DNA of 48,931 bases. It comes from an uncultured Synechococcales cyanobacterium (GTDB taxonomy: Bacteria; Cyanobacteriota; Cyanobacteriia; CAIUCS01). The position numbers and the translations under genes are program-made. Shown here piece by piece: positions 29,160 to 44,648 of this stretch. Under the pieces are notes generated by a model, which was not told the origin of the DNA, did not search any database, and worked only from the letters and a program-made list of their open reading frames with translations. The stretch covers positions 1-48,931 of the forward strand of contig CAIUCS010000010.1 of NCBI GenBank assembly GCA_903897715.1. The letters run 5' to 3'. Positions within the stretch are counted from its first letter, which is position 1. Each line of letters opens with the position of its first letter.

Positions 29160-29343
29160 AGCTTCGATAGTTAAACTATTGAATTAATTTATTTCAAATG
29201 TAACATTTTAAGGATGATGGTAAGACTCTACCTGAATATGCCACTGACAATCATACCAGACAATACTCTTCCCACTATTCCGATTTGGAAATATGGAAAC
29301 ACAGAAACCCTATACCTCACCCAATGGAGTTTCTAGCACTGGT

Positions 29344-40175: not shown

Positions 40176-40646
40176 CTAGGAATCTATTTTTTCCGATGGG
40201 GAAGCAGAGGAAGAATACTGAAGGGCATAATTCTTAAACCGTTCCAAATCTGCTGTGAGAGTTGCCTCCACAATCCGCCCTAGGAAAAGATTATCCATTA
40301 GTTTACCAACGAACCCAGGGATGGCATAGGAAATTGTTAAGCGAACAATACTACTCTGACGACGGTCATAAAAACGAATGGCACCTCGGTTTGGCAAACC
40401 ATCGATTGATTCCCATTGAATAATTTGACAGGGAATCACTTTGAGAATCCGTGACAACCAGCTAAATTCCCATCTCCCTGTAGATAAACGCCATCGAGAT
40501 AGTTCCGGCTCATCTTCAAGAACGGTTACGGAATCAATCCACTTCATCCATAGGGGCATCTTGCCGAGATCAGACCATAAATCCCACACCACTTGGATGG
40601 GAACCTTAATTTCAACCTGAACACTATGTTCGAGCCAGTCTGTCAT
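40176..40646 (-). CDS. SRPBCC (cyclase/dehydrase) family protein
   Basis: 156 aa, a single START/Bet v1-like fold of the polyketide cyclase/COQ10 type. The signature N-terminal pattern VEIKVPIQVVWDLWSDLGKMPLWMKWIDSV is seen in part, followed by a long amphipathic C-terminal helix (LTADLERFKNYA). Such proteins bind hydrophobic ligands such as quinones or pigments, and the ligand here is unknown. ATG 40646 starts the conserved fold. The MITE at 40789-40898 lies about 140 bp upstream of its start and may affect its expression. Confidence 0.83.
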   Translation of the reverse strand: MTDWLEHSVQVEIKVPIQVVWDLWSDLGKMPLWMKWIDSVTVLEDEPELSRWRLSTGRWEFSWLSRILKVIPCQIIQWESIDGLPNRGAIRFYDRRQSSIVRLTISYAIPGFVGKLMDNLFLGRIVEATLTADLERFKNYALQYSSSASPSEKIDS

Positions 40647-40788
40647 GGGGTAAAAAGTAGTATAAATACTAAATTATTGATTAAAAGTTATCCGTTTTTT
40701 TGATTGAAAACAAATGAGAGAATAGATTAGGACTGATATCTTAGGTTTATTCAGGTAATGCCCTTTATGACCTTAATAATAGCATAAC

Positions 40789-40898
40789 CTGGTTGACTGA
40801 CAAAAGTTGTACACCCTGACCCTAGCCCTCTCCCGATGGGAGAGGGCTAGGGTCAGGGCTTTGGGGGTTTTGGCTGAGAAGTTTTGTCAGTCAATCAG
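40789..40898. mobile_element. 110-bp MITE with 17-bp terminal inverted repeats and 9-bp target duplication
   Basis: The ends CTGGTTGACTGACAAAA (40789-40805) and TTTTGTCAGTCAATCAG (40882-40898) are inverted repeats matching at 16 of 17 positions. They are abutted exactly on both sides by the 9-bp direct repeat TAGCATAAC (40780-40788 and 40899-40907), which is a target-site duplication. Inside is a perfect 21-bp-arm hairpin (40814-40834 and 40838-40858) with a GAT loop. It has no coding capacity, so it needs a transposase from elsewhere. It lies between the SRPBCC and orthocaspase genes. The near-perfect ends indicate recent movement. Confidence 0.85.
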
Positions 40899-41017
40899 TA
40901 GCATAACTCAGAAAAAAACTGACGGGAAAGAGGATGGGGGCACACTGGAAAAGCGCCTGATGCACTGACCCATCTTCGTGATAAATCGTCAATCAATGTG
41001 GTCGTGCCCGCCTCCCA

Positions 41018-43351
41018 TTATTCGACTTGGTGAAGGAACTCTAGGGTTGTCCAAGCATTGGTTTGAAGCATATAACTCAGTGGAATTTGAGGGAAGTCAT
41101 TGGTCAAGAGGCTGCCAGCCTGATGTAAATCCGCAAGCAAAGATTTCGCCATACTGAGGGGATTGGAAATGATGGCAATCGGGGGCTTGGATCCGGCAGA
41201 GGAAGAATCTAAGGATGGCGAGGTTTGATTAAACGGGGCGGTACTGAATATTACATAGGTTCGCAGGTTTTTAGAACCGGGGGTTACCGTCCAGTTTAAC
41301 CTGGCAATTTGCTGGGGGAATAACCCCCCAGAGATGACCTCCGGAGAAGTAGCATTAGGGTTGGGGGAAGATTGCAACTCAACCCCGTAGATTCGGTTAT
41401 TATTTTCGACGATCAGGGCTAACCCATAAAGAAGACGTTGATCTCGATTAACAATTTCATATGCCAGTTGCTCCCCGGGTTGAACCATGAAAATTGATTG
41501 AATTTTCGGTTGGTTTACTTTCATTTTGGGTTGGGCATCCAAAGCTAAAAGAACTGGACAAGTTACCTCTTGAAAGATTCGCTTAGATCCTAATCCAGTA
41601 GCCTCTAAAGTTACTTCAATCCCCAATTGAGAAGAATAACTATTGACCGTGAGACGGAATAATTTGATCGCTAAAAGCACCATCAAATGTTCTTTCATAC
41701 GATAAATTGCCGTTTTGACAGCTTCAGTCCTATCTCCCATGCTATCGGGGACGGGAGTGTGGTCAGGGAAAAAGAGACCATATCCCCCCTGATTGATTAA
41801 ATGATTGTCTAAATTAGGACTTAGGGTGGCATCGGTAATAAGGCTGGCGATAGGGGATTGATTTGGCAACTGGGAGTGTCCGAACCAATAGTCTAATTGT
41901 TGGTCTCCAACCCTGACTGGCTTAACATTGGCAATATTCGCAAAGCCACTAATTGCATCTACTCGTTCAATTCTTTCCAAGCTATTGTCTAACCCAATGG
42001 TTAATTTAAGTTGTTCTGGTAAAACCCGAACCCATTCTGTTACCCACTGTCCCACACAGAAGGGGGGCGGCGTTTGTCCATTGAACTCTGGAAACCAGGT
42101 AATAGTAGCGGTTAAGCCCTCTCGTGTAGTGATCTGGACGGGAATGGATTTGAAAGAGTCAGATGATGTGGTGTCTGACGTTACCATAGTAGGTGTGGTT
42201 ATCCCTAAAACGCTCCCTGCCCCATAAAACTCAAGTATGCCCCACGGTACCCCCCCCAACCAGACCTGTGCTGTCCTATCATCGGTCACTTTAATTACAG
42301 AGCCGATAATACCCTGGATGGGAGATTGAACAAGCCCTGGGGCAGTACCACTGTCATTTATTATCCAACGGAAGTGATCCTGCCCTTGTCCTTTTACCAT
42401 TGGTAATTCCCGACTACCAATAGATTGTTTGATATCAGTTGCAATTTTAGCGAGGATAAAATGCACAGTGAAAGGTTGAGTTTTTACCCACAAACGTTGG
42501 GTAAGTTCATAGGTGAGTAGTCCTGCTGTAAACCCGCTAGCTGGAATTTCAACTACAGGAAGCCCTGGTGTTCCCCCAAGCAGAACAATTCCAGGCATTT
42601 TATCGAAAATTTCCCGGGAGTCGGGGGTGGATGACAGGGGTGGAAGTTGGGAGCGTAGTTCATCATACAATCTTTGTTCGTCTGGATGCCATTGTGCCGC
42701 GGGTATCACAGGATGGTTACGCTTCTTTAAGCCAGACACCCCATCAACCATCGTGGATAATCCAAAGCCCGCATCGAGCACAGTGATGACCTGGTCCGTG
42801 GGTAATCTCCGCAATAATATGGCTAGGGTATCTACCATCCAGTCTTGACGAACTGGATCATCAGCGGATAAATACCCATCAAAGGGAACTAGGGTGTAGG
42901 AGGGAGGAGCAGATGAAGGGGAGGGGGTAACTGGAAGTAATTGACTCCCATAGCCGCTGAAATGAAAAAGAACCTGATCCCCTGATTGTACTTGCCGGGA
43001 AAGATGATCTAAAAAAGCTGACTCTATATTTGTTCGAGTTGCTTCCTCATTGGTTAAAGTCAGAATATCAGATGGGCGGAATCCAAATCGATGGATTAAA
43101 AGTTCCCGTTGAAGTTCTACATCGGTGACACACCCGTTCAGTGGGATAGGGGCAATGGGTGGAAGTTGGGATGGATTAGAATTATGACTGTGGTTAGTAT
43201 AGTGGTTGATACCTACTAACAGGGCTAACTTACGTCCAGAGGATTGGGCTAGAACGGGTAAAAAGGATTGAACAGGCACAGAGAGTTGGCTCCCTAATCC
43301 CATCCCTGTTAGTGCCGTGCTAATGCGTCGCAAAAAGACTCGCCGTTTCAT
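41018..43351 (-). CDS. Orthocaspase (caspase-fold) with both catalytic residues replaced
   Basis: 777 aa from ATG 43351 (MKRRVFLRRI). The N-terminus has RR followed by a hydrophobic stretch, consistent with a Tat or Sec signal, so export is likely. The caspase p20 domain (about 40-205) is clear (KLALLVGINHY, DVELQRELLI), but the catalytic His of HSGHG is Tyr134 (HFSGYGSQ) and the Cys of DACFSG is Gly195 (LDAGFGL). Proteolysis is therefore not expected. A C-terminal region of about 640-720 resembles DUF4384-type beta domains. Such dyad-substituted orthocaspases are known in cyanobacteria. It starts 25 bp after the stop of the DevC-like gene and is probably co-transcribed with it. Confidence 0.85.
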   Translation of the reverse strand: MKRRVFLRRISTALTGMGLGSQLSVPVQSFLPVLAQSSGRKLALLVGINHYTNHSHNSNPSQLPPIAPIPLNGCVTDVELQRELLIHRFGFRPSDILTLTNEEATRTNIESAFLDHLSRQVQSGDQVLFHFSGYGSQLLPVTPSPSSAPPSYTLVPFDGYLSADDPVRQDWMVDTLAILLRRLPTDQVITVLDAGFGLSTMVDGVSGLKKRNHPVIPAAQWHPDEQRLYDELRSQLPPLSSTPDSREIFDKMPGIVLLGGTPGLPVVEIPASGFTAGLLTYELTQRLWVKTQPFTVHFILAKIATDIKQSIGSRELPMVKGQGQDHFRWIINDSGTAPGLVQSPIQGIIGSVIKVTDDRTAQVWLGGVPWGILEFYGAGSVLGITTPTMVTSDTTSSDSFKSIPVQITTREGLTATITWFPEFNGQTPPPFCVGQWVTEWVRVLPEQLKLTIGLDNSLERIERVDAISGFANIANVKPVRVGDQQLDYWFGHSQLPNQSPIASLITDATLSPNLDNHLINQGGYGLFFPDHTPVPDSMGDRTEAVKTAIYRMKEHLMVLLAIKLFRLTVNSYSSQLGIEVTLEATGLGSKRIFQEVTCPVLLALDAQPKMKVNQPKIQSIFMVQPGEQLAYEIVNRDQRLLYGLALIVENNNRIYGVELQSSPNPNATSPEVISGGLFPQQIARLNWTVTPGSKNLRTYVIFSTAPFNQTSPSLDSSSAGSKPPIAIISNPLSMAKSLLADLHQAGSLLTNDFPQIPLSYMLQTNAWTTLEFLHQVE

Positions 43352-43376
43352 GCCCCGCTTTCTACCGCTAAATCCA

Positions 43377-44648
43377 CTAGAAAATATCTGCAGGATCAGC
43401 CGCTTGTACCTTGCGAACTGCAATTGCGCCTGAAATTACACACATAAATATTGATAATAATAACACCACTAAAGCCCGTTCTGTGGTCATAAAAATTGGG
43501 AGAAATGTTGCTTTGTTAGTCAAATCATATAGACCTATACACAACAATAAGGCAGGAAAATATCCCAAAATTGATAAAATGAAAGCCTCTTGAAAGACAA
43601 CCGATAATAAATACAAGTTGGTATACCCCATTGCCTTAAGAGTGGCATACTCTGTCAAATGATCCATGACGTCTGTGTAGAGAATTTGGTATACAATAAC
43701 TGTTCCAACAATAAATCCCATTGCTGTACCAAAGGGGAAAATAAAGCCGATCGCTGTTCCGTTTGCCCAGTAACTGCGTTCAAACTCCATAAATTCATCT
43801 TTGGAAAGCACACAAATATCTTTGGGGAGTCCATAGGGGCGATCGCGATTACTGGATAGAAAGTCTTGACAAGTCCAAAGCTGTTTTTTGGATAAGTTTA
43901 ACGATTTGAGCAACCGATCAAACTGACTTTCCTTGGGGGTTGGGGGATCCCCACGAAATTCAGCGAGTGCTCCATTGATATTACTTCCTGGCTTCAGTTT
44001 TATGACTCCCACATCAATTAAGCCCGATTGACGACTGGTAAAAATCCGTCGAAAATTCAGGTCACTGGTAATCACATTCCCATCTGCCCCAAAGGATGCT
44101 CCCAGTTTGAAAAGACCACCGACTGTGACCCGTCGCCCAAATACTTCCGTTTGGACTAATTTACCTTGTCTAAATTGTTGGGGGATGGGACCAAACTCCG
44201 CCCTGGAATTTTCATCAAATAACACCACATCGGGAATTTGAATTTTTTTTATATTTTCCTGGATACCCGGTAAATTAAAGATGCCCCCATCGGGTTGAAT
44301 TCCCAGGATCAAAATACTCCGTGTACCCCGGGTTTCTGGATTGCGCCAAAGTGCTAAATCTAAATAAATTGAACTGACCGATTCAACTTCTGGATAACTT
44401 AACGACTGAAATAATCGACGTTGCGAAAAGGACTGCATGGCAATTAAGGCAGTGGATTGGGGATTAATTAAAAAAATGTCGCCTTGTAGATTTTTGTGCA
44501 GATTAATCGCACTTTCAAATAACGCATCTTGGAATCCCAATTGCATAAACATCAAGATTACTGCAAACCCAATCCCTGCTAGAGCCACTAACAGTCTGGT
44601 CTTTTCGCGCATTAATTGTAGCCAAGCTAAGGGAATTGCAACCATCAC
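43377..44648 (-). CDS. DevC-family ABC transporter permease with extra internal segment
   Basis: 423 aa with four membrane helices expected (one near 17-38, three after about 295) and a large periplasmic loop, the MacB/DevC layout. The N-terminus IPLAWLQLMREKTRLLVALAG and the ending RKVQAADPADIF match DevC closely. DevC normally works with the DevB adaptor and DevA ATPase to export glycolipids or other substrates, but neither partner is in this window. Compared with the usual length of about 385 aa, there are some 40 extra residues at about 232-274 (Gln/Lys/Ser-rich, with one Cys), and the stretch contains a HIP1 site. The orthocaspase gene follows 25 bp later. Confidence 0.85.
   Translation of the reverse strand: MMVAIPLAWLQLMREKTRLLVALAGIGFAVILMFMQLGFQDALFESAINLHKNLQGDIFLINPQSTALIAMQSFSQRRLFQSLSYPEVESVSSIYLDLALWRNPETRGTRSILILGIQPDGGIFNLPGIQENIKKIQIPDVVLFDENSRAEFGPIPQQFRQGKLVQTEVFGRRVTVGGLFKLGASFGADGNVITSDLNFRRIFTSRQSGLIDVGVIKLKPGSNINGALAEFRGDPPTPKESQFDRLLKSLNLSKKQLWTCQDFLSSNRDRPYGLPKDICVLSKDEFMEFERSYWANGTAIGFIFPFGTAMGFIVGTVIVYQILYTDVMDHLTEYATLKAMGYTNLYLLSVVFQEAFILSILGYFPALLLCIGLYDLTNKATFLPIFMTTERALVVLLLSIFMCVISGAIAVRKVQAADPADIF

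Follow-up and report, generated by a model that had tools for sequence, protein, structure and literature searches.

The window, the whole stretch of 48,931 nucleotides analyzed here, corresponds to contig C10 of a cyanobacterial genome of 2.86 Mb, assembled in 207 contigs. A complete element of 110 bp (40789-40898, + strand) lies between two genes, one on the minus strand (41018-43423) that ends at 41018 and one (40176-40646) that starts at 40646. Read directly, it is abutted on both sides by the 9-bp sequence TAGCATAAC (40780-40788 on the left and 40899-40907 on the right, both +). Its terminal inverted repeats (TIRs), CTGGTTGACTGACAAAA and CTGATTGACTGACAAAA, occupy 40789-40808 (+) and 40879-40898 (-) and are identical at 16 of 17 positions, or at 18 of 20 when lengthened. 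Sequence and fold further define a hairpin whose arms (40814-40834 and 40838-40858, both +) are 100% complementary over 21 bp around a loop of 3 nt. The DNA fold of this hairpin is -41.5 kcal/mol (z = -11.4 vs. shuffles). No ORF is listed within the 110-bp element. The first-pass annotation, made from the letters of the window, had described a 110-bp MITE with an exact 9-bp target-site duplication (TSD), 16/17 TIRs and a perfect 21-bp-arm hairpin, and these structural points were all borne out. Across the window, no 9-bp direct repeat other than the TAGCATAAC pair adjoins an inverted repeat matching at 12/17 or better, and 50 Markov-1 random windows contained no 9-bp repeat abutting such inverted ends.

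The ends were then searched genome-wide, a check suggested with that annotation. The 24-bp left end occurred 86 times in the whole genome at no more than 3 mismatches, and the reversed control gave 0. This copy number is the decisive evidence that the element is real. Second copies elsewhere in the genome were thereby confirmed, and 81 two-ended elements were extracted. They form two size classes, 18 copies of 98-114 bp, to which the window copy belongs, and 63 of 135-161 bp; most are 110 or 155 bp long. A perfect 9-bp TSD, for which the chance of a match is 1 in 262,144, flanks 42 of the 81 copies, and 15 more have one mismatch (57 with at most one). The preferred target around the duplication is W-S-N7-S-W: 96% of the bases just outside the TSD are A/T, and 87% of its first and last bases are G/C. 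Mean identity to their own consensus was 97.5% for long copies and 95% for short copies. Measured against the ATC-loop version of the short-class consensus, the window copy has 7 changes in 110 positions, and one inverted loop accounts for 3 of them. Given this divergence, its insertion is not very recent. The earlier description "recently mobile" therefore suits the family, but is weaker for the window copy.

The insertions across the genome avoid gene interiors. ORFs of 150 codons or more contain 9 of the 75 reconstructed insertion sites, compared with 85% of random window positions. Eight of these nine lie no more than 13 codons from the ORF edge, and the other lies 33 codons from the end. 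An outward promoter-like site was predicted at 40776-40803 (-), with TTGTCA in the left TIR and TATTAT, 16 nt away, across the TSD; it faces the minus-strand gene at 40646. One such site was found against 1.1 expected by chance, so that a promoter in the left end is no better than chance and is a weak lead.

To look for empty sites, the flanks of each copy were joined and compared with all fetched loci of the genome. Two loci, L270 (contig C53) and L260 (C137), carry the MITE inside copies of a repeat, with the duplication GACAAGAAC / GTTCTTGTC. Locus L009 (C206) holds an 88-89% identical repeat with a single GACAAGAAC and without the MITE, and is thus an intragenomic empty site. The MITEs of L260 and L270 occupy the same site of this dispersed repeat, and they may have travelled along when the host repeat duplicated. 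An empty site for the window copy was sought in 50 named cyanobacterial loci with a homolog of the neighboring gene, from genomes that included none of the same genus or family; homology ended at that gene, and the other neighbors were not conserved. Insertions within conserved genes were no use for empty-site comparisons, as they sit at ORF edges and reach no further than 33 codons in.

The parental transposase had been described as absent and unidentified. The second part did not stand, since the parent can be identified as an IS4-family insertion sequence (IS) of about 1.3 kb. In genome G023, the end CTGRTTGACTGACAAAA occurs in pairs spaced by about 1.3 kb, which bound a 1322-bp IS with the same perfect ends, and both of its split frames match the IS4 family model. 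The three 1322-bp IS4 copies there (L148, L149 and L150) are near-identical; in each the transposase frame is split and a TSD is missing, which could reflect amplification of one defective copy or programmed frameshifting. Because of the split frames and the missing TSDs, the parent was defined from other genomes. With the C-terminal half of the G023 transposase as query, relatives were found in 109 of 291 genomes of the class. Full-length IS copies span 1287-1358 bp; among those measured, most keep an unbroken transposase frame, with 390-422 open codons. Their TSDs are 9 bp in L156, L161, L163, L165, L171, L173 and L179, and 10 bp in L178 and L182.

The signature Y-(2)-R-(3)-E-(6)-K and a target duplication of 9-12 bp were used as marks of the IS4 family, whose IS50 and IS10 types make 9-bp duplications. 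ORFs of 382-408 aa in the relatives pass PF01609 (DDE_Tnp_1) at 27.7 and 27.2 bits (cut-off, 23). The match to NF033591 (transpos_IS4_2) extends over most of the model with E = 1e-36, and its 126 bits lie under the curated cut-off of 152. The signature can be read as YGLRFDIEENFLDDQ, in which Y, R and E are in register and Q replaces K.

The left 22 bp of the MITE (CTGGTTGACTGACAAAAGTTGT) are exact in L163 and L165, and the right 20 bp are exact in L163. The left and right TIRs are the counterparts of the transposase-5' and transposase-3' ends of the parent IS, respectively, and the MITE retains the two distinct subterminal ends, ...AAAAGTTGT on the left and ...AAAACTT on the right. Beyond these ends, the MITE interior is unrelated to the IS and nothing else of note is in common. 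The search for an IS with matching ends and 9-bp duplications, also suggested at the outset, thus succeeded.

An intact transposase of this IS group was not found in the 207-contig draft assembly of the MITE-bearing genome, which yielded a truncated copy and relics only. The truncated copy lies on C117 (15068-15567), with 76% amino acid identity over residues 1-118 and one in-frame TGA. C117 ends 500 bp into this copy, and a draft assembly could hide an intact one in this way. Relics are present on C131, C1, C206 and C2. The C206 relic appeared by eye to be interrupted by another IS. The window itself had been called otherwise IS-free, which does not hold strictly: at 29213-29277 (-) lies a 66-bp remnant of the parental IS that shares the MITE ends, from its IS4-family transposase region, with 79% identity (E = 1.0e-7 and 1.75e-9; protein E = 0.0135). 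The IS4-like matches on C147, C146 and C94 were rejected as parents, as they are without such ends. Five single ends were seen on viral contigs. Two of these contigs (L185 and L187) have the same single end, CTGGTTGACTGACAAAATTCACAGATCC, and the same flank, with no partner end found. The element itself had no match to phages.

The lack of an intact IS4 copy in 207 contigs would fit a different transposase sharing these ends, such as an unseen family in the assembly gaps, having moved the element. We consider this highly improbable, given that an IS4-family IS matches the two distinct ends exactly, over 22 bp and 20 bp, and makes a TSD of the same length. The MITE reading is supported by the copy number, the conserved TIRs, the independent 9-bp TSDs, the siblings' empty site and an IS with the same ends and TSD length. 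By every test that could be run, the element is a MITE.

Genomes of other families contain full-length relatives of 153-156 bp that are 79-90% identical and flanked by 8-10 bp duplications of their own (L280, L281, L282, L284, L290, L292 and L294). Horizontal transfer is plausible. Two further loci, L082 and L096 (genomes G008 and G015), contain MITEs of 140-141 bp with the same IS4-type ends around a different palindrome, GTAGGTTGGGTT. A group of IS4 elements and several MITEs thus share this end sequence. The MITE end sequences were not found in the literature searched.

We next consider the interior. By its sequence plan, CCCTCTCCC-loop-GGGAGAGGG-loop-GGGTGAGGG, the core of the 155-bp form is an inverted pair of the intrastrand triplex motif. 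The MITE has CCCTCTCCCATCGGGAGAGGGCTAGGGTGAGGGC, compared with CCCTCTCCCTGTGGGAGAGGGCCGGGGTGAGGGC in motif no. 1 of E. coli (PMC4666352). One triplex unit has gone from the window copy. The remaining one, CCCTCTCCC-GAT-GGGAGAGGG-CTA-GGGTCAGGGC, lies at 40826-40859 (+) and was compared with E. coli motif no. 1 and the family consensus. Its third run is mutated to GGGTCAGGG, which departs from the family by a G->C change. The assignment of the MITE core to the triplex motif is one of sequence plan, and its folding into a triplex is putative. The triplex-motif pattern occurred 130 times in the genome and 0 times in the control. Among 30 places examined, 22 had MITE ends on both sides, and a further 2 belonged to a single copy that has lost the right end.

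The module also exists apart from these ends. The segment at positions 25-116 of the 155-bp form is found on its own in many cyanobacteria, on Enterobacter and Pantoea plasmids (at 73-78% identity), and in the same genome at L303, L315, L316, L325 and L328. The triplex pairs without IS4-type ends at L303, L315, L316 and L328 (contigs C6, C27, C28 and C48) appear, by eye, to have another inverted sequence around ATCCCAATTTT on their flanks. These ATCCCAATTTT-flanked modules are perhaps a second MITE family that carries the same module. Such free-standing modules would fit a palindromic repeat of REP/BIME type that includes the TIRs and is spread by a RAYT tyrosine transposase or by replication slippage. 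As an explanation of the element, we regard this as very unlikely. The 9-bp TSDs lie precisely at the TIR ends and are perfect in 42/81 copies, an empty site exists, and the ends and TSD length are identical to those of a DDE IS; RAYT elements are not known to produce such a TSD. The free-standing triplex modules may have spread by a REP/BIME-like route, and the element with its IS4-type ends is still best read as a MITE.

The 110-bp class retains one hairpin and is a deletion of the 155-bp form down to that hairpin. The short forms (L001-L018) include intermediates, L009 and L010, with unlike arms. In L015, L016 and L018 the right arm is matched to the left, and in others the left arm is matched to the right. 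Four base pairs changed on both arms and none on one side, giving 7 both-side cells compared with 1.8 in shuffles, a count that kinship can inflate. The paired changes are transversion pairs, without one-sided G-U steps. The window copy has a private pair, C30-G66 changed to G30-C66, and its loop is GAT, the reverse complement of the ATC found in most copies. Homogenized arms combined with an inverted spacer have been described as the mark of template switching (PMC8604942; see also PMC8794818). From the paired arm changes and the loop inversion, template-switch replication most likely made the arms perfectly complementary.

These arm changes also bear on whether the locus encodes a folded RNA or a transcription terminator that is kept between two genes for a host function and is not mobile. 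The strong hairpin, the intergenic position and the gene-avoiding distribution could all be taken to favor such a role. Nevertheless, the hairpin had no match in Rfam and the element has no terminator-like T tract; with no terminator found, that part of the proposal was dropped. About 80 dispersed copies have different flanks and their own TSDs, and the transversion-pair changes fit template switching, not selection on RNA pairing. We therefore judge a host-maintained RNA or terminator to be exceedingly improbable, and return to the mobile element.

We propose the following mechanism. The DDE transposase of the ~1.3-kb IS4-family IS would recognize the ends CTGRTTGACTGACAAAA, acting in trans on the ends that the two elements are observed to share. 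The element would be cut or copied and joined to the target by a 9-bp staggered cut, leaving the flanking 9-bp repeats. Its interior has a source other than the IS and, in the common 155-bp form, is an inverted pair of the G/C-rich triplex motif, which is also free-standing in many cyanobacteria and in enterobacteria. Deletion to one hairpin would have produced the 110-bp form, including the window copy. The arms would then have been made perfectly complementary, most likely by template-switch replication, and the window element appears now to sit inert between two genes. Taken as a whole, the account of a non-autonomous IS4-family MITE with a triplex-pair interior, a 110-bp deletion form and homogenized arms, now inert, is one in which we have strong confidence.

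Elements of this kind have precedents. Nezha is a cyanobacterial MITE reportedly described by Zhou, Tran and Xu in 2008. According to PMC3049150, Nezha is proposed to be mobilised by ISNpu3-like elements. By description, Nezha resembles the present MITE in that both are found in cyanobacteria and were linked to an IS through the ends they have in common with it. The likeness to IS4-family ISs consists of the PF01609-type DDE transposase in the parent (with a match to NF033591 under its curated cut-off), ends starting with CTG, and a TSD of 9-10 bp. The difference is that the MITE is without a transposase and has an interior unrelated to the IS. The triplex motif of Holder et al. 2015 (PMC4666352) has the same 34-nt plan, CCCTCTCCC-loop-GGGAGAGGG-loop-GGGTGAGGGC, and also occurs as an inverted pair with two loop types; the inverted pairs described there always combine the two, much as the MITE pairs two different units. 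That study found no link of the motif to mobile elements and left its spread open, whereas most copies examined here are bounded by transposon ends and TSDs. The kind of element is thus already known, and the part worth attention is the triplex-motif cargo.

This work proposes a concrete IS4-family parent for a multi-copy cyanobacterial MITE that occurs in other families of the class. In addition, the MITE copies provide a natural series from imperfect to perfect hairpins, in either direction and with inverted loops, so that template-switch correction is testable in one genome. The MITE is also a candidate mobile carrier for the triplex motif, which has been linked to genome instability and had no explanation for its spread. 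A second inverted-repeat element of this genome, with the unrelated ends ATCCCAATTTT and the same module, would mean repeated capture. Whether IS4-family MITEs are the vehicle that disperses inverted triplex-motif pairs in cyanobacteria is, in our estimation, an even question. If true, the vehicle model would answer how a cross-phylum triplex repeat moves between and within genomes.
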